NCBI RefSeq assembly: GCF_000226115.1
Contig: NC_016457.1
Coordinates: 9,734,001-9,798,000 of the forward strand
Direction of reading: 5' to 3'
Origin: Thermothielavioides terrestris NRRL 8126
Lineage: Eukaryota > Ascomycota > Sordariomycetes > Sordariales > Chaetomiaceae
DNA: 64,000 bases
A program made the position numbers and the translations under genes. Shown here in pieces: positions 1,206-15,040 of this stretch (the first letter of the stretch is position 1; each line of letters opens with the position of its first letter). The notes beneath the pieces are model-generated. The model worked only from the letters and a program-made list of their open reading frames with translations. It was not told the origin of the DNA and did not search any database.

Positions 1206-1384
1206 TATATACTACCTAGTTAGTAGCTAGGTTCTAGATATAATAGATATTTAAGGAATTGTATCCTATAAGGTAGCCGATCTAGGCTCTTAGTCGGAGC
1301 CGTTTAAGGCGCCTCTCTTTCTTCTTAGCGGCATTAGTTATAGCGAAAGCTTTGTAGCTATAGACCTTCAAATGCCCCTAGTAC
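1206..1384 (-). mobile_element. Ty1/copia fragment between integrase and reverse transcriptase
   Basis: The minus-strand translation contains LKVYSYKAFAITNAAKKK and, further on, IGYLIGYNSLNIYYI. This is the segment that follows the integrase core and precedes the RT in Ty1/copia polyproteins. Joined across the Gypsy insertion to the minus strand of 14528-15040, the copia frame continues, so both pieces come from one element. It is cut at about 1205 by the truncated LINE. TAG codons stand at expected W/Q positions, as RIP would leave them. Confidence 0.75.
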
Positions 1385-1885
1385 TGAATTGGGGTGATGG
1401 ACTACCTGGACATGGGGGACCTAGTTTTTCTGTTTTTCTATTTGTCTCAGAGCGTTGCATTCGTTGCTAGGGGAGGTCTGACCCTCTGGTTATATATATT
1501 TAAGTGGGCTAAGCCCATCTTCTTCATTATAAAGTAAGACATCAAGTAGTTGTCAATATACGTTCGTTGATACCACGTTGGTGGTCCCTCTTCTTCTAGA
1601 AAGGCTATTGAGCCTCTCCTTCTATTGTTCTACCTCTATCTAGACGATAGGCATTCGAGCTATTGAGCTCTGACTATATTCTTATTGTCCTTTCTTATAT
1701 TTCCGCTATATCCTACTAGACGTATCTGAGCTACGTATCTTCCTTTCGGAAGACAGCCTTCCTACCACTTGATATACACTATCTTTATCCGTCTAGAGAG
1801 ACACTGCATTCCTTTAGAAGCTGTCTTACACGCCTGGTTCTAGGTGTGGTAGGGCAGGTTGGTATAGAGGTTTTACACCACTTCA
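1385..1885 (+). repeat. 5' LTR of the Gypsy element
   Basis: This 501 bp direct repeat pairs with 14025-14527. It starts at the TG of tgaattggggtgatgg and ends ...ttttacaccacttca. Nearly all differences from the 3' copy are C/T or G/A transitions, so the two copies diverged through RIP rather than random mutation. Confidence 0.85.
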
Positions 1886-3049
1886 AATAGGGGCTCAATC
1901 GGGGAGGAGCTCAGCTCTATATCCAAACGGGATAGTATAGACTACGAAGTTTTCCAAGATTGTAGAACTATACGATACTATATTGATGGCTATACAACGA
2001 CGATATAGCCGACTTGTTGAGGCTCTAGTATACCGATACCGGCATCTCCGAGAGGTATAGAGGCCTATTGAGGTATATATGTTCTAGGGGTCTGTTGAGA
2101 CCTTGTCCTAGGAGACCTTCCTTTGCCTAGACGGTATAAGGCATTGAAAAGATATCCTATTATCCTTAATACTTCGAAGACTTATTGAGGCTTCGTTATT
2201 ATCGACGTAGCGGTCGTAAAACGCTAGCCTAATCGAAAGACGATAGTCCTATCCTCCTAAATAGAGACAAGGGTAGAATTTTCATTGATCGTCATTTTCT
2301 TCTTCGGTCTAGCTAAACTAATTATAAAAGCGGTCAAGTATAGTAGCTATTTACAAGCTTCTAAGCTTAGGACTACACCTTTACAATACTTAGCTCCTTT
2401 TAATAGTATATCTAGCACTGTTTTATATTAAATATAAGGTCTTAGCGTAGACGTTTGCTTTTCTTCTTAAGAGCTATACTCTTACTACTATTATATTAGT
2501 TAGGTTTAGTATATTAGTTGCTAGAGATATCTAGGTAATTTGTAAAGAACCTATAGTTATCCTTTAGGGCCTTTAGACTATATATTCTAAAGGAACTTAG
2601 CTACTTAAGAAGTTTTCTTCCTCTAGATAGACGTCGAAAGAGTCGATATTCCTATAGAAGTATATATATCAATCTTTTTATAGTCTATTGATATAGTCGT
2701 TACCTTTCTCGAAGACAATAGCTAAACGCCTAATAACTAGACTCTAGCGATATATATATATACTATCTATAAAAGCTCTAGGAATTCCATTGACCTCTAC
2801 AACATTGTCAATCCTAACGCCAACCTCTAAGGGAGAGTCCAAAGATATATCTGTCTTATAGCCTTTCTAAGGTATACTAAGCGAAGAAGACCTAGCCAAA
2901 GCGGTGTAGATACCTCTTCCGTCTTCGCCAAATACCTCTACTCCGCCTATCTATATAGAGGCATCTACAGTAATATCTTCTAGTTAATCTAAAGTCGAAG
3001 TTCTAAAGAAGATAGCTAAGTATATTCTTACTACTACACTTAGTACGAC

Positions 3050-4500
3050 CTTTCCAACCCTAGCGAAGGCTAGCCTTTAGGGCCGCTTCTCTAGTCAAAA
3101 TGCTATACGATAGATCGAGATCTTTAAAGAGATATATAAGGCTTATTAGGTCACTAATAACAAGACCTATATATATCTGTTCAAGCTTTGGTATAACACT
3201 ATGATCTAGCCTATTATCTGTCATTAGGAGAAAAAGGACTAAGACATCTAAGCTACTTTCAAAGCTAAGTTCCTAAAGTATTAGAAGGGCGATAATCCTA
3301 AGTAGTATAGTAACAGAGATTACCTTTATAATCTAATCAAAGAGAGATACTAGCTAATCAACAAGGTTATCTATAACTACTTCGAGTTGATTAACTATAT
3401 ATATGCTATCGCCTCTACCAAAGTTTATAAGGAGCTATAGTATATAATCGTTCCGATAGTATAGCGTATATTTAATCAACGAATCTAAGTAGCTCTTAAA
3501 GACCACTAGCGTACCCTAAAGAAGGACGACAAGGACTCTATCTGTACTATAAAGTAGATAGACTTCCTTAAGTTCGTTTAGGATACTCTTTAGAAGGGTC
3601 TTAACGTAAGAGACCTCTTCCTTAAGACCTATAAGCGTAAGATCGATCTATAGAAGTACTACTCGCCTTCGGCTACGCCTACTGTCAAGACGACTCCTAA
3701 GCTATAGAAGTAGAAAGAAGAGGAGCCGAAGAGAGCTCTTATACCTACGCCCAACGATATCGACGATCTAGCTAATTAGCTCTAGCGTCTATATATCTAG
3801 AAATAGAAGATCGTCGAGCAGTTTAAACGGAAGATCGAGGCTCTCCGTTTATATAGAATTGATCCTACTTCTAACGAGATCAAGGTTCTCCGAATATATT
3901 TCTAGTAGTAGCGGAGTCGTTTATAGAAAAGATATATTAGCTTTATTACTAGTCTATATATTGATAGTCGTCCCCCTAGCTATAGTAGACCTATAAGTTC
4001 TAGCTATTGCTACTACTATAGTGACTCTGACTATATAGTTCTTAAGTGTATAGAGGCTATAAAAGCTATAGCTATAGGTCTAATATATTGCAAAGATATA
4101 GATTACTACCTTGGTAATAGGAGTAAGAAGGGCTATATACTAGCTAAGACGATCACCTTTACGAAGATAGATATTAACAATGTATAAGAGGTCGGTAAAA
4201 TTAGCTAGCTTATTCTTATATATATAGCCTATTGCCTACAATATAATAGCTACCCTATATACTAAGTGTACTATCGCGAATATAAACGCCTAAATGGTCG
4301 CCTATTCAAGCTAGATATATCTCTAGTATTAAACAAGTACTACCTCTAGTAGCCTAAGCTATATTAAGAACCTACGACCATCTAGACAACGATCAATTGT
4401 CTTATATATAAAGGGGAGCCTAAGCTCATTTTCGCCTTCTATTATATAGCGTCTAATCAGTTATTGTTTTATATAGTCTTATTAAAAGGAGGTCGTATCT
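3050..4500 (+). pseudogene. Gypsy gag-like region
   Basis: A mostly continuous plus-strand frame with TAG at Q/W positions lies upstream of the retropepsin. It is rich in Lys, Gln and Tyr and reads, for example, QRTLKKDDKDSICTIKQIDF near 3510-3550. A charged KQKEEEPKRA-type stretch near 3710-3740 resembles the spacer after a capsid domain. No intact zinc knuckle was recognised; Cys codons (TGT/TGC) are easily changed to TAT/TAC by RIP. The function is assigned from its position between the 5' LTR and the protease, not from a recognised domain. Confidence 0.5.
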
Positions 4501-5319
4501 TGACTTAGAAGGTTGTCCTACGATCTACATTAAAGGCTAACGAATTCCATCGACTACCTCTTCCTCTCTTTAGCTAGACCAAAGAGGAAGCCAAAGGGGA
4601 AGTCAAAGGGGAAGTGGACAAAGAAGCGAAGACTATACTTCAAGGTGCACTACCTACTAAGCGTCGATTTACTAAGGACGAAAGGGAAAACAATATCTAG
4701 ATAGGCGATACTCCTATACCTCTAGTGGAGCCTCCTTATATAATCATCTTCAAGAACCTAGCTATAGCGAATCGTATAAAGAAAGAGGAGCTATAGTCTA
4801 AGCCGCCTACACCGAAAGTTGCTACATTGCCTTCGTATATAAAGGATATAATCTATACTACGATAAAAGCGAAGACTAGTCTAACCTTTAACAACTTAGT
4901 CTATATCTCGCCTAAGTATAAGAACGCTCTAATCGTATATCTACAAAGCATTTCTACCGATATCGAGGTCATCGACTATAAAGGGTCTAGTATCCTTGAG
5001 CCTAATAGGCTAGCTACTACACTGAAAGATATAGAGGTCTATATATAGGCTCTATACACCAATGTAAATATACTTAGTAGCCTTTGCTCTAGTTAGACTA
5101 AGACGATTCCAATAATCTTCAAAGTTACCAAGGACGGTATATAGAGCATCTATATAGGAAGCCTCTAAGAGCACTAGATTCGTGAGGGTCCACCTAGAGA
5201 CGTTGACAATCGTATCTATACCCTACTCTAGAAATCTATTTCGACGCTTTTAGTCTTAGAGCGTATAGAACTCAGTGCAATAATAAGAGTATAGTCGCTA
5301 TCTACTCTATATATCTAGT

Positions 5320-8300
5320 TCGAGAAAGGTTATTATAATAAGTATCTCGCTTTGATCGACTCTAGTTTAGAGTATAACTATATCTCGATAAACGTCGTTG
5401 AGAAATATATACTACTATACTAGTCTACTAAGGTCGTTTCAAAGGGTCTTTACAGCTCGGCACCGTTCCTTAGAGAGACCTAGGTCGCTCTTTACCTAGG
5501 CGGAGTCGACATCAACCTTCACTTCTTTGTAACTAAGGACACTACTAGCGGATACAAAGTAATCCTTGGTATACTGTTTATTAAAGATATTACTCTAACT
5601 TTCGATTACTATAATAGTAATCTAATTACTACTAATCTGCTTATAGAAGGAAAGATAGTCTAGGCGTACATCGTCTCTAAGAAGATTGTCTAGCGGAGCT
5701 ATCTACTATCTCTAATATAACTAGCCGTTTAAAAACAATTCTAAGGATTAACGAAGAGTCCTAAAAGAATCTTTGACTAGGTAGAGATAGAGGAAGGCGA
5801 GACTACCCTTAGTTTCCTCAACGATAATATAGGTAAAGTGGTTTTTTATCTTGTTTTATAAAAGTCCTATATACTACTCCTTAGCACTCTTTTTCACATT
5901 ATACGTTCTTATTCTTTATCTTCTCCGTCTAGATGGACGGAGATCGAATTGTTATCTTATTTAAGAGGGAAGAGGGGGACCCTAGTTAGAAGCCCCTTTT
6001 CCAACCGGAGGCTAAAATAGAGATTTGAACGTAAGGTCAGACGTACCCTAAAGACGTTTATACTCTAGAAGAATGTCGTAAACAAGGTTCAACTAGTCGA
6101 TTTAGTACTATTAGATAGCTCTACGCTAGAGAGAGACCTATTGTAGTAAGAAAAGCGGTTTACAAAGGCTAAGGCAAAGATATAGTTCGAGAAAGAATAG
6201 GACGATCTTATAGTCCCTTGTTTCTTAGATCTTAAGCTAGGCTCGAGGCTTACTGAGGAGCACCTTTAAACGATACTCGCTACTATAGACAAGTTCCTCA
6301 ATGAGCTAGAAAAGGAGATATTTACTAAGATCTTATAAAACTAGGAAGCTACGCTTATATAGGATTTCACTGAGTATAGGCGTATCTATAAGGATATTGT
6401 CCTACCCTAACGTATTAAGACCATCCTATATAAGGCCTAGCAGAGCAAGTCTATTCCAATTCTGAAACTACTAATATAGAAGGTTATTAATCTGCTTAGA
6501 GAGAGGCAAATATATAGGATTATCGAGTATAGCTATATAAGCTACTATAATAACTAGTTCCTTATTCTTAAGAAGGACAGTGGATTATAGTTTATCAATG
6601 ATATTTAAAAGGCCAATGCTATAACGATCTATAACGCTTTCGTCCTACCTATTGTAGAAGAATTTAATAAAGACTTCGGTAACTATAAGCTAATGTCTCT
6701 TCTAGATCTCTTCTCTAATTACAACTAGGTCAATCTCAATAAGCGGAGCTACAATTTAACGACCTTTTCGACGCTAATTAGTCTCTTCTATATATATATA
6801 TTGCCGATAGAGGGTATAAATTCCATTGCCTAATTCTAATAGACTATAACAACGATCTTTAGTAACCTTATCCCAAATGTCTATCGAGTCTACCTAGACG
6901 ATATCGTAGTAAAAGGCCTTTAATCTAATTATAATAGCTATCTAGATAGAGGAGGACGTTACGAATTTGTTATTAAGTATCTTAAGAACATTGATATAGT
7001 GTTACTAAATATAGAGCTAGTAGGTATAACCATTGCTATAGTGAAGTCGAAGTGGGCGTAGCTAAAAGCGGTCTTACTTAGTTATCTTTGTATACCTAAC
7101 GGACACCTTCTTAAGGAAGCAAAGGTAATTAAGATAAAGGAGTAGAAGACCTGTTCTAACGTTAAAGAGGTATATACCTTCGTTAGAATAGTCGAATACT
7201 ATTGGATCTAGATCAAGGGCTTTACAATTATCGCGATTCCTCTTTATACCCTAATAAAGAAGGATACTAAGTGGACTTAGGGGCCTACTAAGTAGAAGGC
7301 GATAGACAAGTTAAAGGAGAAAATCACTACTACTCTAGTCCTTACAACGCTCGTCTATAGCGATCCATAGTATAGTATAATCTTCCTAGTTTACAACGCT
7401 AGTATCCTCGGCTAGGGAGGTATACTCGAGCAGGTTAGTCCCAATAGTAAGAGACACCTATATAGATTTGAGAGCAATATCTAGTTAAAGGTAGAGAAGC
7501 AGTATAATACTATAAAGAGAGAGCTAAGGGGGCTACTCTTCCTCCTAAAGCGTTTTCGCTACTACCTTTTTAATATATATTTCATTATAGAGACCGATAC
7601 TCTAGTTCTAGTCCATTAGCTCAATAGTACTACGAACGATGTTCTAGGTACTCTTATAATATACTAGATTGCCTAGATCCGTCTATTCGACTTCGAGGTC
7701 AAGTATATCCTAGGCCCTAAGAACGTTATAGCCAACGCGTTGTCCTACAAGCCGCCTAGGCCCTCTGACTATATAGAAAAGGAGTTGGAGGAGGATATCG
7801 ACGACTAGGTCGACGTCTAAATCTTTGTTAACTATATAGGTAAAGAGACTTCGTATTCGAAGGGGAGACTAGAACCTATTCGCCTTTGGGATAGTTACTC
7901 CCAATGCTCCTAGGACATTGCCTACTTCCTATCGACGATAGAAGCTCCGTCTAGCTATAGTCTATACTAGAAGCGACGTTAACTTAAAAGGGAAGCGTTG
8001 AAATACTTTGTTGAGGATTATCACCTTTTCCTCCAAAGTACGAATTATATACAGTGCTATAGGTGTATTGTTGATACCCCTAAAGAGAGGCGTCTAATCT
8101 TCGACTAGTGCTATAGCGAGGTTGGCTATTATAGGAGAAAGGCGATGTACCAACGAGTAATAAACCACTACTATTAGTGTAGGATATACAAAGATGTTAT
8201 AGAGTAGATTCGAGCTTATATACTATATCAAGTATACAATACCTAGAGGTTTAAGGAAGTAGTAGGTTAGATAGTGCCTCCGCCTTTTCCTTTTACCAAA

Positions 8301-9945
8301 TGGCACCTCGATATCTAATATATACCGTCTAGCTATAAGGAGAAGAAGTATTTCCTCGTTGAGGCTTACAACGATCTTATAGGATATATCGAGGCTAAGA
8401 TCCTACTAAACAAGTCCTCTAAGGCTATTAAGTCCTTTATTATATAGTATATCCTTTGTCGCTAGGGCTACCCTATTGTTGTAGTTGTCGACGAAAGCTC
8501 TAAGTTCAAGGGCGAAGTTAAAGAGATCCTCTATAAACTACGGATTAAGAGAGTCATTATCTCGCTATACAATTCGTATATAAACGGAGTAAATAAGGCC
8601 GGCTATATCCCGATTACTACCTCGCTTATAAAGATGACTAATAATATAGGAAAGAGGTAGAGGGAGCTCCTTCTATATATTTTATATATAGATCATACAA
8701 TTGTCAAAGGCTCTTATAGAATATCTCCCTTCTTTCTTACCTACAACTATAAGCCTATTAGTCTAATCGAGTTTAATGTTCCTACCTAACGGATTCTTGC
8801 CTAGGACTCTATCTATACCTAGATAGAAGGAGAGGATTCTACTAGACGCTATACGAAGCTCATTGCCCTCTGTACTTATATCCTCTAGGAAGCTAAGTAT
8901 AATTGTGAGATTACTATCGAACAGGTTGCTATAGCTTATAAAAAGCTAGCCAAACGCTATAATAAGGCCTATAAACGTAAATTTCGCCTAGAAAATACGA
9001 TAATATCTATTAGCAATCTCGTCCTTATCTACAATAATATTCGACAACTAGATATAAGCTTAGTCCGGAAACTAGAGTATCGCTAGTTTAGCCTATTCTA
9101 TATTCAGATAATCAAAGACTAAGACATTTACTTCCTAGAGACTTTAGACAATGTACCTATCTAGACACTATATCCTCCGAACTATATAAAGAAGTTCTTT
9201 AAGCTAGATAACGTCTAGTTAAAAGCGGACAATATAAACCTATTCCTCTACTTAGAGGGGTATAGCGACAATAAGTATCGCTACGACGATCGCTATAGTA
9301 AAGCGTAGAATAGTGGAGAAGCTAATCCTAACCCTAGTACTAGCTAAGGCTTAGCTGCCTTAGTATACTACAATAGCGAGATATACTAACTTAATAGTCG
9401 CTTAAGCTCTCGCTATAATAGGGAGATATATACTAGACACTTCTAAGGAGAACACTACCGCCTCGATAGTTGCTCAAGGCTCTATAAGGATAGCGAAAAG
9501 AGGTCTAGTACCGCCGAAAACAACTAGAATACTAACGACTAGACTATAGGTTGTTACCCCTATTAACTAGCTGAGAATTCCGATAGTAGCCAACCGGTTA
9601 AGCTTCCTTATAGCAACGAACTATATAGCGCCTTAACTAGTCGATAATACCGCCTTAGCGATCCTCATTATGCTTATAGCGACGGCCTACTAAGGGAGGA
9701 AACTATGTAAATAGTCGTAAAGGACGCCGCGATTATAGTAGAGGAAGAGGTCCTCGAAGAAAAAACCTTTAGTCGTACTATAGCGCCTTAGGCTAGCTAG
9801 ACTCACTCGACTACGAAGGGGGTAAGGAAGGAGCAACCTCGTTAAGAGCTTATTGTCGAAATCCCCTATAGAAAGCTACCTAGTTTTTAACACTAGCCCT
9901 CTAGACGTATAGAGATATATATTCTAGAAGGGGGGGAAGGTACGA
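5320..9945 (+). pseudogene. Gypsy pol: protease, reverse transcriptase, RNase H, integrase
   Basis: The retropepsin is seen near 5345-5580: ALIDSSLEYNYIS at the active site and later GYKVILGI. RT follows at about 6300-6960, with the catalytic motif VYLDDIVV near 6890. RNase H is near 7390-7750 (NASILGQGGILEQ and an ETDT motif). The integrase region has a zinc-finger-like stretch near 8000-8220 (ending INHYYQCRIYKD) and a core beginning KWHLDIQYIPSS near 8300, with DESSKFKGE near 8490. The domain order PR-RT-RH-IN identifies the Gypsy/Metaviridae type. Many in-frame TAG codons make it non-coding today. Confidence 0.8.
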
Positions 9946-10442: not shown

Positions 10443-13400
10443 AAACCACTTTTAGCCTACCTTTTCTAGATGTAGCTTCAGCCTAGGATTATTCTTTGGA
10501 TCGTATAGAAGGTAGCCCTATAAGATCAAGTCCTAAGCTAGGTACTTCTAATCGTTCCTATAAATATAAGTCTAGGTATATTCCTTCTTTAACTAGATGC
10601 AGTTGGTACACTTATTAGTAAAAAGAGGAGTAAGAGAAGCGTAGCTATTGAAGGGCTAAATTATATAGACATCTCCATCTTCGCTAAAAGGAGTTGTTAA
10701 ACGCTAGTATAAAAGTTTATAGCTTTGGCAAAGAACTTTGTTGCTATAGGAATATTAGTCTTCCTCTACCTAGAGGGCGAATATAAAAGGGAAGTATAGC
10801 ACTTATTTACAACCCTATACCTAGATCAAGAGAGCCGAAGCTCAGTTTAGGCGTATAGCAAGATAATATATCCAACGCCTAAGTAGTCTACTATTATAAT
10901 ACTCTACGAATACTAGACAAAGAACCAAAGTGTTATAGTACTATTCGATTATATTAACTAGCCTATCATCGATATAAATCGATTGCTATATCCTATACTA
11001 ATCTTGCTAATTGCTTAATAGGACCTACTAGATATATAGCAATCTAACGTTTAGTCGAAAGATCTTAATTATATCGTAGATAGCCTTATATTCGACCGAG
11101 ATTATAGTATATTTGTTAATATAGCACTTATCTTTCAGCATTGGTAGATCCCTCATCTTACTTTGGACTACCTAGACGTACTTCTAAGCTACGAAGATCA
11201 TTGTTTTTAATACTAGCGAAAGATCGATCTAGCGGTTTATAATCCTATATAATAATGGCCTCTAATCGCTTACTTTATCAGTAATTTCCTATAATATATC
11301 GTAGATACACTAGCTACTTAGCATTATAGTTTCTAGGTTATAAATTCGTATATAGGAGCTATATACGAATTCGAAAGGGAAGTAGAAGACCCGACCACTA
11401 AGAACCTAATCTGCCTAGAGAGACGAGGGCACTAGAATAAAGTAGCGAGAAGGTTGAAGGAAGAAAATGCTTCTAGAATAGTAAGGAGGAGAGGAAGGCC
11501 TTAAGAAATCAAAGGGCGAACGCTTATTTTCAACTAATTAGTAGGCGCTACGAGCCTTATCTATTTTCTTTCGCCTAGTTTAGGAAAGAGCTAAGTAGCC
11601 CTCCTACCTTCGAAGGCTTGCCTACCCCTTTTTCTTAATCCTCCTACTAGCTCTCTTACGATTAACCATTTCTTTCGCCTCGACCACTACACCTTAGATT
11701 TTCTTATAATCGCTTTAATCGGTCTAGATCTTTCTATCTAGAGAGCGACTTTTCTATTGAGCTAAATTTTTATATACTATCGTAAATATTGCTATAGGTC
11801 GTTGTAAGATTCCTAATTTCGTAGGGCCTATATAACCTTAGGCCGATATAACCGCTACCCTAAGATAGAAGTAGCTACTTAGAGAGCTTAAGTTTTATAT
11901 ACTACTAGGTTCGTAGAGGCTTATAGAAGATAGTGATTAAGCGAGGCATTACACCTCCCTTATAGGGCAAGAGCTAGACTTAAAGATACTAAGTTACTCT
12001 AGGGAGACTAGTCCTAAGCTTTTTCTATTTCTATAGACCCTAAAGAAGTATTTATAAAATGTGATCAACCGGTGGCCTAACTAGATTCAAAGCCCTTGGC
12101 TTAGCGTAAACCCTAAGATTATAAGCTACCTATTCCTAGGCTAGCTAGAGGGAAGGTATACGATAGATCGGTTTTTCAAAGTCAGTTTTATAGATATAGG
12201 TATTTCGCTCTTCGATATAAAAGGTATACTATTCGCTAAGGAATAGCTAAAGGGCTAGATAATCCTAGACGTTATATAGTTTTTCTTTCGTCCTTACAAA
12301 GATTGTCTCTAGTTCTACCTATAGCTTGTCTTAGATACTAGTCCTATATCAAAGGAGTTCCACTGGTCTAGCTAGAAGGTCATTGCCAACCGTTGTCGCT
12401 TTTAGGTCTTCCTTTGCTTCGTCGACGGAAGGCATTAGGCCATCGTGATCTTCGACTAAGTCGTAAACTAGCTTTACTACTTCAACTCTATACTTAAGAG
12501 TATAGAGATATATACTAATATCTTATTAAAGGTCTAGATTGCTTTCTAGTCCGTCTATAGATTCCTTTAGTCGTAGCTATATAAGGAGGTCATTATCCAT
12601 TGCCTTTGGCAAAGTTTAGAATAGGAGTATAGATAGTTCGCCCTCGAGTTTATATAGGCCTTTCTTCAAGAGCTCTAGCCCTACCTTCTAGACGAATAGA
12701 CGTAGTTTAGACTACCTTAGCTTCGGCTATACTAGGGAGATAGCGAGATAGTTATATAGCAACGTATATTACACTTATAGTTAGGAGCTTATAGGAATAC
12801 TCTTAGTACCTTTAAGGATTATCTACTCTATACTAAAGGAATCCCTTTATTACAATAGAACGAAGGGAAGATGTACAAGCTCCCTCTAGACCTATTATCT
12901 TCGACCTAAGAACCTATATAGCCTATGCTCTTGGAGTATAACGAAGACGAGGTGATCGAAGTCCTCTAAGCCAACGATATATTCACGTCTAATACCCCTA
13001 AATTCAATAACCTACCTATATATCTTTGCAACTACTTCAGTGATATAGAACTTAGGATTCTAGCTATATACTTAGTAGTGTTTAAGGAAGCCTAGCTCCC
13101 TAGCTAGAGTGAGGAAGGAGTGATCGCCACTATTTAAATTATCTTTACGTCCTAGTCAAAAAAGGATATAATGTACCAAGTATACTATCGTAAGGTTATA
13201 GGACTCCTACTAGATAGACAGTTTAGCAATATACTATCTTTATAAGACCCTATAAGTAACCTTAGACAACAGCTATAAGGTACATTTCTAGCACCTAGCG
13301 TTATTCTACCCCTTCGACTAGAGGACTAGCCAGTTGCTTTAGGTCCATTAGTAGTACTTATAGAGGATCTTAATAATATATTAACCTAGTGGGATATCAG

Positions 13401-14035
13401 AGCTAAGATTATAGAGATTGCTATACTATAAGCAACTACGATATAAAGGCTTGTCGATGCCCCTATAGATAAGATAGACCGTAAGCGCCTTCTCGGCAAT
13501 AACCTAGTTAAGAACCTCGGGGTATCGGTATAAGTAGCTCTTAAGAAGATGGCACTTAATCCCTACCTCTAGGAAAAGGAGACGCTCGTCTATATACTTA
13601 TAAGGAGGCTAGACTACCTTAAGATGCCTTATACTCTAGTATAGAAGTATCTTTAGGCACGAAGATTATCTATATTATCTAGCCGAACGTTACCCTTAGT
13701 GTAGTACTGTAGTAAACGCCCTTGTAAGGAGCTAGCGAAGCCTAGACGTCTACTTCGCCTACTACTATACAACCTATATAACCGTGCCTTTGCCTATAAA
13801 TATAAGTATCTAGTATAGTAGCAAGGCTAGGACGTGTATATTAAGGAGATAGAGGAGTATAAGAGACGGTATAATCAACCACTATAGCTAGCTGGACCTT
13901 TGTAAGCTAAGAGAGCTATATATAGAGAGTAGCTTAAAGAGTAGCGACGATGAGAGGTATATATTAGAGAGCTTTTAAGGTACGAGCTTGCCTATAGGAG
14001 TGTATAGCAAGCTCGAAAGGGAAGTGTAAATTAGG
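10443..14035 (+). pseudogene. Extra coding region of the Gypsy element with a candidate Ulp1/C48-like protease core
   Basis: Two long plus-strand frames, interrupted almost only by TAG/TAA at RIP-type positions, fill the space between pol and the 3' LTR: about 10443-11545 in one frame and about 11500-14035 in another, suggesting an intron or one frameshift near 11.5 kb. The total is near 1190 codons. In the second part, RH followed by TAG (12430-12438) precedes AIVIFD, then YYFNSI (12478-12489). This is the layout of the His and Asp motifs of Ulp1-type proteases. About 45 codons on, tag-gag-tat-aga-tag (12622-12636) precedes FALEF. Undoing single G-to-A changes there would give the Gln-Cys-Gly pattern of that family. 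About 460 codons after this core match nothing I recognise. The protease call is inference from three short motifs. Confidence 0.5.
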
Positions 14036-14527
14036 GTGATAGACTATTTGGATATAGGGGACCTAGTTTTTCTATTTTTCTATTTATCTTAGAGCGTTGC
14101 ATTCGTTACTAGGGGAGGTCTAACCCTCTAGTTATATATATTTAAATGGGCTAAGCCTATCTTCTTTATTATAAAGTAAGATATTAAGTAGTTGTCAATA
14201 TACGTTCGTTGATACTACGTTGGTAGTCCCTCTTCTTCTAGGAAGGCTGTTAAGCCTCTCCTTCTATTGTTCTACCTCTATCTAGACGATGGGCATTCGA
14301 GCTATTGAGCTCTGACCACATTCTTATTGTCCTTTCTTATGTTTTCGCTATATCCTACTAGACGTATCTGAGCTATATATCTTCCTCTTAGAAGATAGCC
14401 TTCCTACCACTCGATACGTACTATCTTCATCCGTCCAGAGGGACACTGTATTCCTTTGGAAGCTGTCTTGCACACCTGGTTCTAGGTGTGGTAGGGCAGG
14501 TTGGTGTGGAGGTTTTGCACTACTTCA
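14025..14527 (+). repeat. 3' LTR of the Gypsy element
   Basis: Direct repeat of 1385-1885, starting tgtaaattagggtgatag and ending ...ttttgcactacttca, preceded by a polypurine tract and followed by gtac. The first part carries more T/A at former C/G sites than the 5' copy, while the last 100 bp are less altered, so RIP acted unevenly on the two LTRs. Confidence 0.85.
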
Positions 14528-15040
14528 GTACAGCTTATACTCTAAGGCTCTTAGGCTATCTCTCTTAGCGAAGAAGGTATAAAACCGATCCTACAGTGTT
14601 ATCTACTCTATTGTTAAGGTTAGCGTCCTATAGTAGAGATATACTATAGCCCTAGTAATTTCTAGCTACAGTTGCTATAGCAACTGCGTACTAATGGCTA
14701 TTGCTCTAGCCTTCTCTTTGATTATACTCCCTAAGCGTTTAGCGCCCCTGTTCTATATAAGTGTATTAGGCGTTGAAGGCTCTATTTGGATGCCTTGTCT
14801 CTCTGCCTAGGTGGTGATAGCGCTTGCCTATATAAATTCGTTGTTATATTCTAGGACCTTGATATATAGCTAATACTACTTTTCAAGTAGTATAGCAAGG
14901 TGTTTAATAGCAACTAGGATACCTAGTGCCTTGCAATTATATAGATAGTAGTCCTATATTATACTTAAATAGCGATCTATTGTTAATAGTAGATATTTAA
15001 AGCTTTATCGGCCTAGCTAGAAGGGGTATAGATCTAGGGC
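14528..15040 (-). mobile_element. Ty1/copia integrase core fragment
   Basis: The minus-strand reading gives IKVLEYNNEF, then AERQGIQIEPSTPNT, then RGAKRLGSIIKEKARAIA, a close match in layout to the C-terminal half of the copia integrase catalytic core. YLYYRTLTLTIE follows, the usual Y-L-YNRTP region. Stops fall where W/Q is expected. The fragment is bounded on the right by the LINE at 15041 and on the left by the Gypsy 3' LTR. It joins in sense to 20375-21853 and to 1206-1384. Confidence 0.8.

Follow-up and report, generated by a model that had tools for sequence, protein, structure and literature searches.

A probable Ulp1/SENP-type protease domain in a third coding region of a RIP-mutated Ty3/Gypsy retrotransposon of Thermothielavioides terrestris

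A 64,000-nt stretch of the Thermothielavioides terrestris NRRL 8126 genome (C1:9734001-9798000, hereafter the window; the genome searched comprises 36.9 Mb in 6 contigs) holds a Ty3/Gypsy long terminal repeat (LTR) retrotransposon of a 13.1-kb family, mutated by repeat-induced point mutation (RIP). The element has a third region behind gag-pol, here called ORF3 (open reading frame 3), and the predicted ORF3 protein very probably contains a C48-like domain of the Ulp1/SENP type. The explanation that we favor, with a probability of about 0.5 for the whole, is that these elements carried a third coding region whose product would have contained a Ulp1/SENP-type cysteine protease (clan CE, C48 or a close sister) with a His-Asp-Cys triad and an oxyanion Gln; this protease would have stripped element or host proteins (integrase, Gag, silencing or transcription factors) of SUMO or a ubiquitin-like modifier, and the deconjugation would have protected the element from modifier-dependent restriction. 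The region is indeed long and situated between pol and the 3' LTR, as an earlier note on this DNA had it: the pol signal ends at ~9700 and the 3' LTR starts at 14027. The interval proposed there, 10443..14035, is present, although its end lies 9 bases inside the LTR.

The Ulp1/C48-like reading, also first put forward in that note, is supported by several controlled comparisons, made on a stretch (12031..12870, + strand) that is colinear in 39 copies, with one extra base at 12280 in L010 and L047. The hhalign and RIP-tolerant comparisons used C48/Ulp1 profiles and templates only. With stops read as X, the 39 copies aligned by hhalign to seven C48 sequences with a score of 29.6 (E 1.1e-3 for one comparison), which none of 400 column shuffles reached (maximum 20.2), and the other five frames gave 10.5-13.8. 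A 127-sequence profile, mostly of fungal Ulp1, gave 25.6, which none of 300 shuffles reached (maximum 24.0, a small margin). In the RIP-tolerant alignment, single copies are compared with a profile under codon scores that permit C-to-T and G-to-A changes; here the seven-sequence profile assigned all 39 copies the same four catalytic codons, at 12433 (His), 12484 (Asp), 12610 (Gln) and 12628 (Cys). Scores of the copies were 24.9-37.4; the maximum was 22.0 among 48 codon-order shuffles and 17.4 among 40 runs in other frames. Scanning the whole window in six frames, the ORF3 site came out best at 34.0, followed by a partial match at the same place (23.9) and by 22.3 as the best score elsewhere, while 60 block-shuffled elements gave no more than 26.8. 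The site was also best after SENP8 and L044 had been left out of the profile (29.1 versus 21.8 elsewhere, a comparison within the window only). Two single templates exceeded all of their 200 shuffles in the mean over the 39 copies: the host C48-like protein L046, with 27.6 against a shuffle maximum of 22.4, and human SENP8, with 22.0 against 18.1. These profile tests (hhalign, RIP-tolerant, whole-window and single-template) are independent of a RIP-tolerant motif pattern with the spacings given below, which was written after the motif had been seen. Read in all six frames, the 13-kb element contains that pattern once; of 300 dinucleotide shuffles, none produced its strict form and one its loose form, and the loose form is found once in the remaining 49 kb of the window.

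The predicted catalytic residues follow one another in one frame of the + strand, with motifs in the order given in the earlier note: His at 12433, LYYF-N/D-S with its Asp/Asn at 12484, and a Cys/Tyr codon at 12628. The placement of Gln at 12622 in the earlier note was wrong, for by the C48 profile the oxyanion Gln is the codon at 12610, which precedes Cys by six residues. Across 43 copies, the His codon (12433..12435) reads His in 26 and Tyr in 17, and the next codon (12436) Trp in 15 and stop in 28; the Asp codon (12484..12486) reads Asp in 37 and Asn in 6, followed by Ser in 42 and Phe in 1; the Gln codon (12610..12612) reads Gln in 29 and stop in 14; and the Cys codon (12628..12630) reads Cys in 2 and Tyr in 41. 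All six key residues (H, W, D, S, Q and C) are thus attested in real copies. ORF3 resembles Ulp1/SENP (Peptidase_C48, PF02902) in its His-Trp and Asp-Ser pairs and in its spacings: 17 residues from His to Asp, 48 from Asp to Cys (49 in L046, by eye) and six from Gln to Cys. ORF3 departs from Ulp1/SENP in the residue that follows Cys, which is Gly in Ulp1/SENP and Arg (42) or Lys (1) in the 43 copies. It also differs in lying in an LTR retrotransposon and in having no plain Pfam match in its RIP-mutated state.

A number of results speak against the protease reading. Cys is kept in only 2 of 43 copies, and His, Asp, Gln and Cys occur together in none of them, one of the two Cys copies being without Gln and the other without His. 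The 127-sequence profile mapped all four residues in only 26 of the 39 copies in the RIP-tolerant alignment (Gln and Cys alone in 9, His and Asp alone in 4), and its mean score of 19.7 is below the shuffle maximum of 23.7. Without L046 in the seven-sequence profile, the ORF3 site was still best at 24.5 versus 19.4 elsewhere, again compared within the window only. The hhalign match covers only the His-Asp half of the domain (the His-Trp to Asp-Ser hairpin), and when the alignment to the 127 sequences was forced to extend, the template Cys did not land on 12628. Host Ulp1 L042 as a single template scored 21.1, just below its shuffle maximum of 21.5, and L041, L044, yeast Ulp1 and SENP1 gave means within their own shuffle ranges. 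No ORF3 copy was among the matches of a C48 family search of the genome, no homologue was obtained at E 1 in protein-collection searches with 8 and 25 ORF3 copies, none was found in a scan of viral contigs, and AlphaFold on 25 read-through copies gave a predicted local distance difference test (pLDDT) value of 32.9, which is unusable for the fold. Since the 39 copies derive from one ancestor, they amount to one good observation and not to 39 independent tests. At the level of coding, a purine/pyrimidine signal that is insensitive to transitions is weak in ORF3, and fixed transversions in the protease stretch show no excess at third positions, so that purifying selection on the frame is unsupported, whereas pol, taken as control, behaves as coding. 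Plain Pfam, finally, detected no C48 domain in the window copy, in 8 copies, in 6 domain-piece copies or in 7 readings with stops taken as Gln/Trp, and one reading gave two weak unrelated matches only.

This last failure says little, because the reverse transcriptase (20.5 bits) and the integrase core (13.8 bits) of the same element also miss their Pfam cut-offs, as does an intact host C48-like protein, with 15.7 bits where PF02902 requires 20.7. The lack of a triad and of a C48 match, which the earlier note named as speaking against its proposal, has not been borne out so far: the His-Asp-Gln-Cys order was recovered, with Gln moved, although plain Pfam gave no match. A search of the sequences of solved structures with the read-through window copy gave no match either. 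The lack of a plain database match, the single ancestor of all copies and the half domain seen by hhalign are also what might be expected if the resemblance had arisen by chance in low-complexity, RIP-mutated sequence; we regard this as very unlikely in view of the shuffle and frame controls on hhalign, the RIP-tolerant alignment, the whole-window scan, the motif pattern and the single templates. A further possibility is that ORF3 has a C48-like fold without catalysis and served as a binding domain for a SUMO-like modifier, or took the envelope position as an accessory protein. The loss of Cys in 41 of 43 copies, the complete absence of Gly after the Cys codon (0/43) and the codon positions, which give no sign of purifying selection, would fit such a protein. 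Yet Tyr in place of Cys or His is a product of a RIP-type transition, transitions make up 95% of the differences between ORF3 copies and the window copy, and the real residues persist in some copies, so that we consider a non-catalytic fold unlikely.

ORF3 belongs to the family: it is found between LTRs, in three subfamilies and in independent insertions. Place counts are lower bounds, 40 of 107-112 candidates having been scored per query. The window ORF3 as query gave at least 40 places in 41 rows; a second-subfamily query added 11 places and a third-subfamily query 20, and with one more place read individually there are at least 72 distinct ORF3 places altogether. The 3' LTR end could be placed in 39 of 40 ORF3 copies, with 38 distinct flanks among those 39, and six LTR pairs lie on one strand 12.60-12.64 kb apart (40 of 41 LTR rows); the presence of the region between the LTRs of independent insertions, which the earlier note proposed to check, is thereby borne out. 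Copies lacking the region, which would have spoken against that note's proposal, have not appeared so far: of the 40 listed pol places (40 of 86 candidates scored), 37 are accompanied by an ORF3 place at the distance expected, and the other three (C1:3170595, C2:106842 and C1:4240396) have none among the places listed. In the third subfamily, ORF3 was present in 3 of 3 loci read, one being cut at 13127 and one deleted from 13611 to near the LTR end. Two copies, L021 (C3) and L022 (C1), have the same alignment values, the same reading of the protease stretch and the same 3' flank, which suggests a duplicated segment rather than two insertions.

How ORF3 is organized can be read from insertions and deletions, mapped in 42 copies that were each aligned singly to the window. 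The first block (10443..11500, + strand) is unsettled as to frame, and its sole indel shared within subfamilies is a deletion of 3 bases in at least 20 copies. The second block (11743..13963, + strand), whose codons start at positions of the form 3n + 1, holds the C48-like domain; up to 13600 its shared indels are multiples of three, namely 9 extra bases in 3 of 3 subfamily-C copies and a 3-base deletion in the twins L021/L022. Shared indels that break the frame (+11, +1 and -1) fall within 11500-11743, and another (+1) at ~13964. Between 11743 and 13600, only single copies have frame-breaking indels (+1 each in L010, L016 and L047). L027 has a 396-base insert there, and 8 of the 42 copies have any indel at all. 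Shared indels in threes within blocks and frame-breaking ones between them are the pattern expected of two coding blocks with a non-coding spacer, so that the two long frames of the earlier note are plausible, except that the ~240 bases between them (11500-11743) do not keep frame. This spacer could be an intergenic stretch, an intron or a frameshift site. The same note's remark that RIP-type stops are nearly all that interrupts these frames is uninformative, since any stop codon can be a RIP product: the ORF3 frame has 62 stops in 751 codons, and within 11800-13600 the columns that are stops in all copies number 18 in the ORF3 frame versus 8 and 22 in the other two, those that are stops in some copies 77 versus 93 and 83. 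Counts of stops common to copies thus do not single out the ORF3 frame in this interval.

These indels also bear on whether ORF3 is a mere passenger, left by a C48-bearing DNA transposon, as the earlier note also considered, or by a host gene that inserted once in the ancestor. Such an origin has its precedents: Mutator and Ginger1 carry Ulp1 genes (PMC2836005), as do Cryptons (PMC3212892). But all three subfamilies have retained ORF3, and its shared indels in 11743-13600 measure three or nine bases. A search for terminal inverted repeats around it gave nothing convincing (23 weak pairs of at most 30 nt), and the Pfam scans of pieces showed no transposase or tyrosine recombinase, although one may be masked by RIP. 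We consider the passenger origin distinctly unlikely.

The host genome has C48 genes of its own. In the C48 search, 5 loci accounted for the 6 matches (one gene matching twice), and every match lay in an open frame within DNA of 57-60% GC; an intact C48 transposon elsewhere in the genome was considered as a source and rejected, judging from the frames and base composition of these loci. The nearest single template to the element's protease, L046 (C1:3148270-3151563), is a host ORF of 719 aa that is present once; its C48-like domain stays below the Pfam cut-off, and its tail is of low complexity. The host Ulp1 gene is present at L042 (C1:6053870-6057418) and L043 (C6:2166009-2169557), identical with its surroundings over 3549 bases, which points to either a recent duplication or an assembly duplicate.

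The element copies form three subfamilies, A, B and C, between which the protease segment has changed much faster than pol. Fixed transversions were compared with three copies each of B and C for pol and with L047 and L049 as C for ORF3; only L029's element represents B in both sets. In 2 kb of pol, B and C show no fixed transversion in 1964 sites, and A differs from B and C at 11/1977 and 12/1979, with 0/11 and 0/12 of these at second codon positions. In ORF3 (11743-13100), the counts are 49/1351 for B-C, 40/1354 for A-B and 12/1353 for A-C, distributed roughly equally among the codon positions. With all copies, 29 of 47 A-B transversions fall within 12000-12899 and 40 of 47 A-C transversions from 12600 on. 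That third positions show no excess is compatible with diversifying selection or with a complete lack of constraint; the 0 B-C changes in pol are not accounted for by neutral drift alone. Within ORF3 (11400-13600), A groups with C up to ~12600 and with B beyond, and in pol B groups with C; groupings that differ in this way along the element point to recombination between element lineages. Between integrase and ORF3 (9225-9717), the subfamily-C loci L047-L049 do not align with the window, and this stretch varies by subfamily.

The remainder of the element fits a Ty3/Gypsy retrotransposon. The purine/pyrimidine signal runs in one phase over ~2900-9700, the phase of reverse transcriptase, RNase H and integrase, and fades before ORF3. 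In Pfam pieces with stops as X, these domains appear in this one phase and in Ty3/Gypsy order: a piece of reverse transcriptase (RVT_1, 6666..6911), RNase H (RT_RNaseH_2 48.8 bits and RT_RNaseH 47.5 bits, both above cut-off, 7284..7634), and the integrase zinc-binding domain (Integrase_H2C2, 18.9 bits, below its cut-off) with the rve core (8079..8573), all on the + strand. An aspartic-protease-like motif, ALIDSSLEYNYIS, lies in the pol frame at 5349..5387 (+ strand); it was assigned by eye, and the piece has no Pfam match. The usual retroviral-type protease thus also seems to be present in pol. This matters for a third alternative, that the clan-CE domain was a maturation protease cutting the element's own proteins and not SUMO conjugates. 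Clan-CE maturation proteases with the same triad order operate in adenoviruses and Polinton/Maverick elements, and the ORF3 domain is part of what the element itself encodes. Gypsy-like integrases are moreover described for Polintons (PMC2836005), making exchange between such elements conceivable. With the aspartic-protease-like motif in pol, however, a second protease for polyprotein cutting seems unneeded, which makes it less likely that ORF3 simply took the place of the maturation protease. Both the Gln-Cys spacing of six residues, as in Ulp1, and the Asp-Ser pair, as in Ulp1/SENP, also count against this alternative; a maturation role is accordingly rather improbable.

The LTRs, at 1385..1885 (5', TG...CA) and 14027..14527 (3', with TA...CA ends), are each 501 bp long on the + strand and differ at 49 sites, 49 by transitions and 0 by transversions. 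They are flanked by the 4-bp target-site duplication GTAC (1381..1384 and 14528..14531), and a purine-rich stretch just 5' of the 3' LTR (14005..14026, + strand) is a polypurine-tract candidate, picked by eye. The RIP indices agree with the heavy mutation: TpA/ApT is 1.65 in the element versus 0.45 in the gene-rich DNA of the window, and (CpA+TpG)/(ApC+GpT) is 0.46 versus 1.27. The four bases 3' of the 3' LTR read N-TA-N in 37 of 39 copies (2 of the 39 being one duplicated segment) where the TA frequency of the flanks is 0.148, and the integrase of the family seems to target TA. RIP-mutated DNA is enriched in TA, so that with this preference the family may direct its insertions to regions that are silenced already.

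Judged by its sequence features, ORF3 is a C48-like accessory gene in a Ty3/Gypsy element, and C48 genes are already known from DNA transposons. One of these is Ginger1, a mobile element with a Gypsy-like integrase and a Ulp1 domain, and Mutator also carries Ulp1; these are DNA transposons, however, and in Ginger1 the Ulp1 domain is at the C-terminus of the transposase, whereas that of ORF3 is in a separate region of an LTR retrotransposon (PMC2836005). CryptonF and CryptonS of oomycetes similarly have a C48 gene as an accessory of a mobile element but are tyrosine-recombinase elements without LTRs or reverse transcriptase (PMC3212892). The fungal Ty3/Gypsy elements surveyed in PMC3248453 share the LTRs and the RT-RNase H-integrase order; as origins of additional domains that survey cites chromodomains and complex multiple insertions, and Ulp1 and C48 are absent from the main text of that survey. 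In the titles and abstracts searched, which did not cover most subscription papers, no C48 gene was found described in a fungal Gypsy element.

Why would a retrotransposon keep such an enzyme? The reasons given for Ulp1 in DNA transposons are proposals, for example a role in DNA repair (PMC2836005). Yeast Ulp1 that is kept at nuclear pores limits Ty1 transcription (PMC8585004), which means that a fungal LTR element does meet the SUMO pathway and is affected by SUMO state; the direction of a SUMO effect on the Gypsy family cannot be predicted from the Ty1 case. That ORF3 acted as a deconjugase against host control is inferred, as are activity, substrate and benefit to the element, and we give this role somewhat less than even odds. 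More doubtful still is the idea that a fungal Gypsy lineage gained its own deSUMOylating or deNEDDylating counter-defence enzyme and entered an arms race with its host, in which the protease part of ORF3 was altered repeatedly while pol remained constant, and in which recombination carried new versions from one subfamily to another.

The sequence nevertheless suggests that this now dead element may once have interfered with the protein-tagging machinery of its host. If the counter-defence idea is true, the family would represent LTR retrotransposons that encode an enzyme antagonizing modifier-dependent silencing. A C48 domain in an LTR element that replicates through RNA would favor control by host SUMO or ubiquitin-like modifiers, and not a step of cut-and-paste transposition, as the common need behind these genes, and the question of why Ulp1 recurs in transposons would become testable in model fungi.

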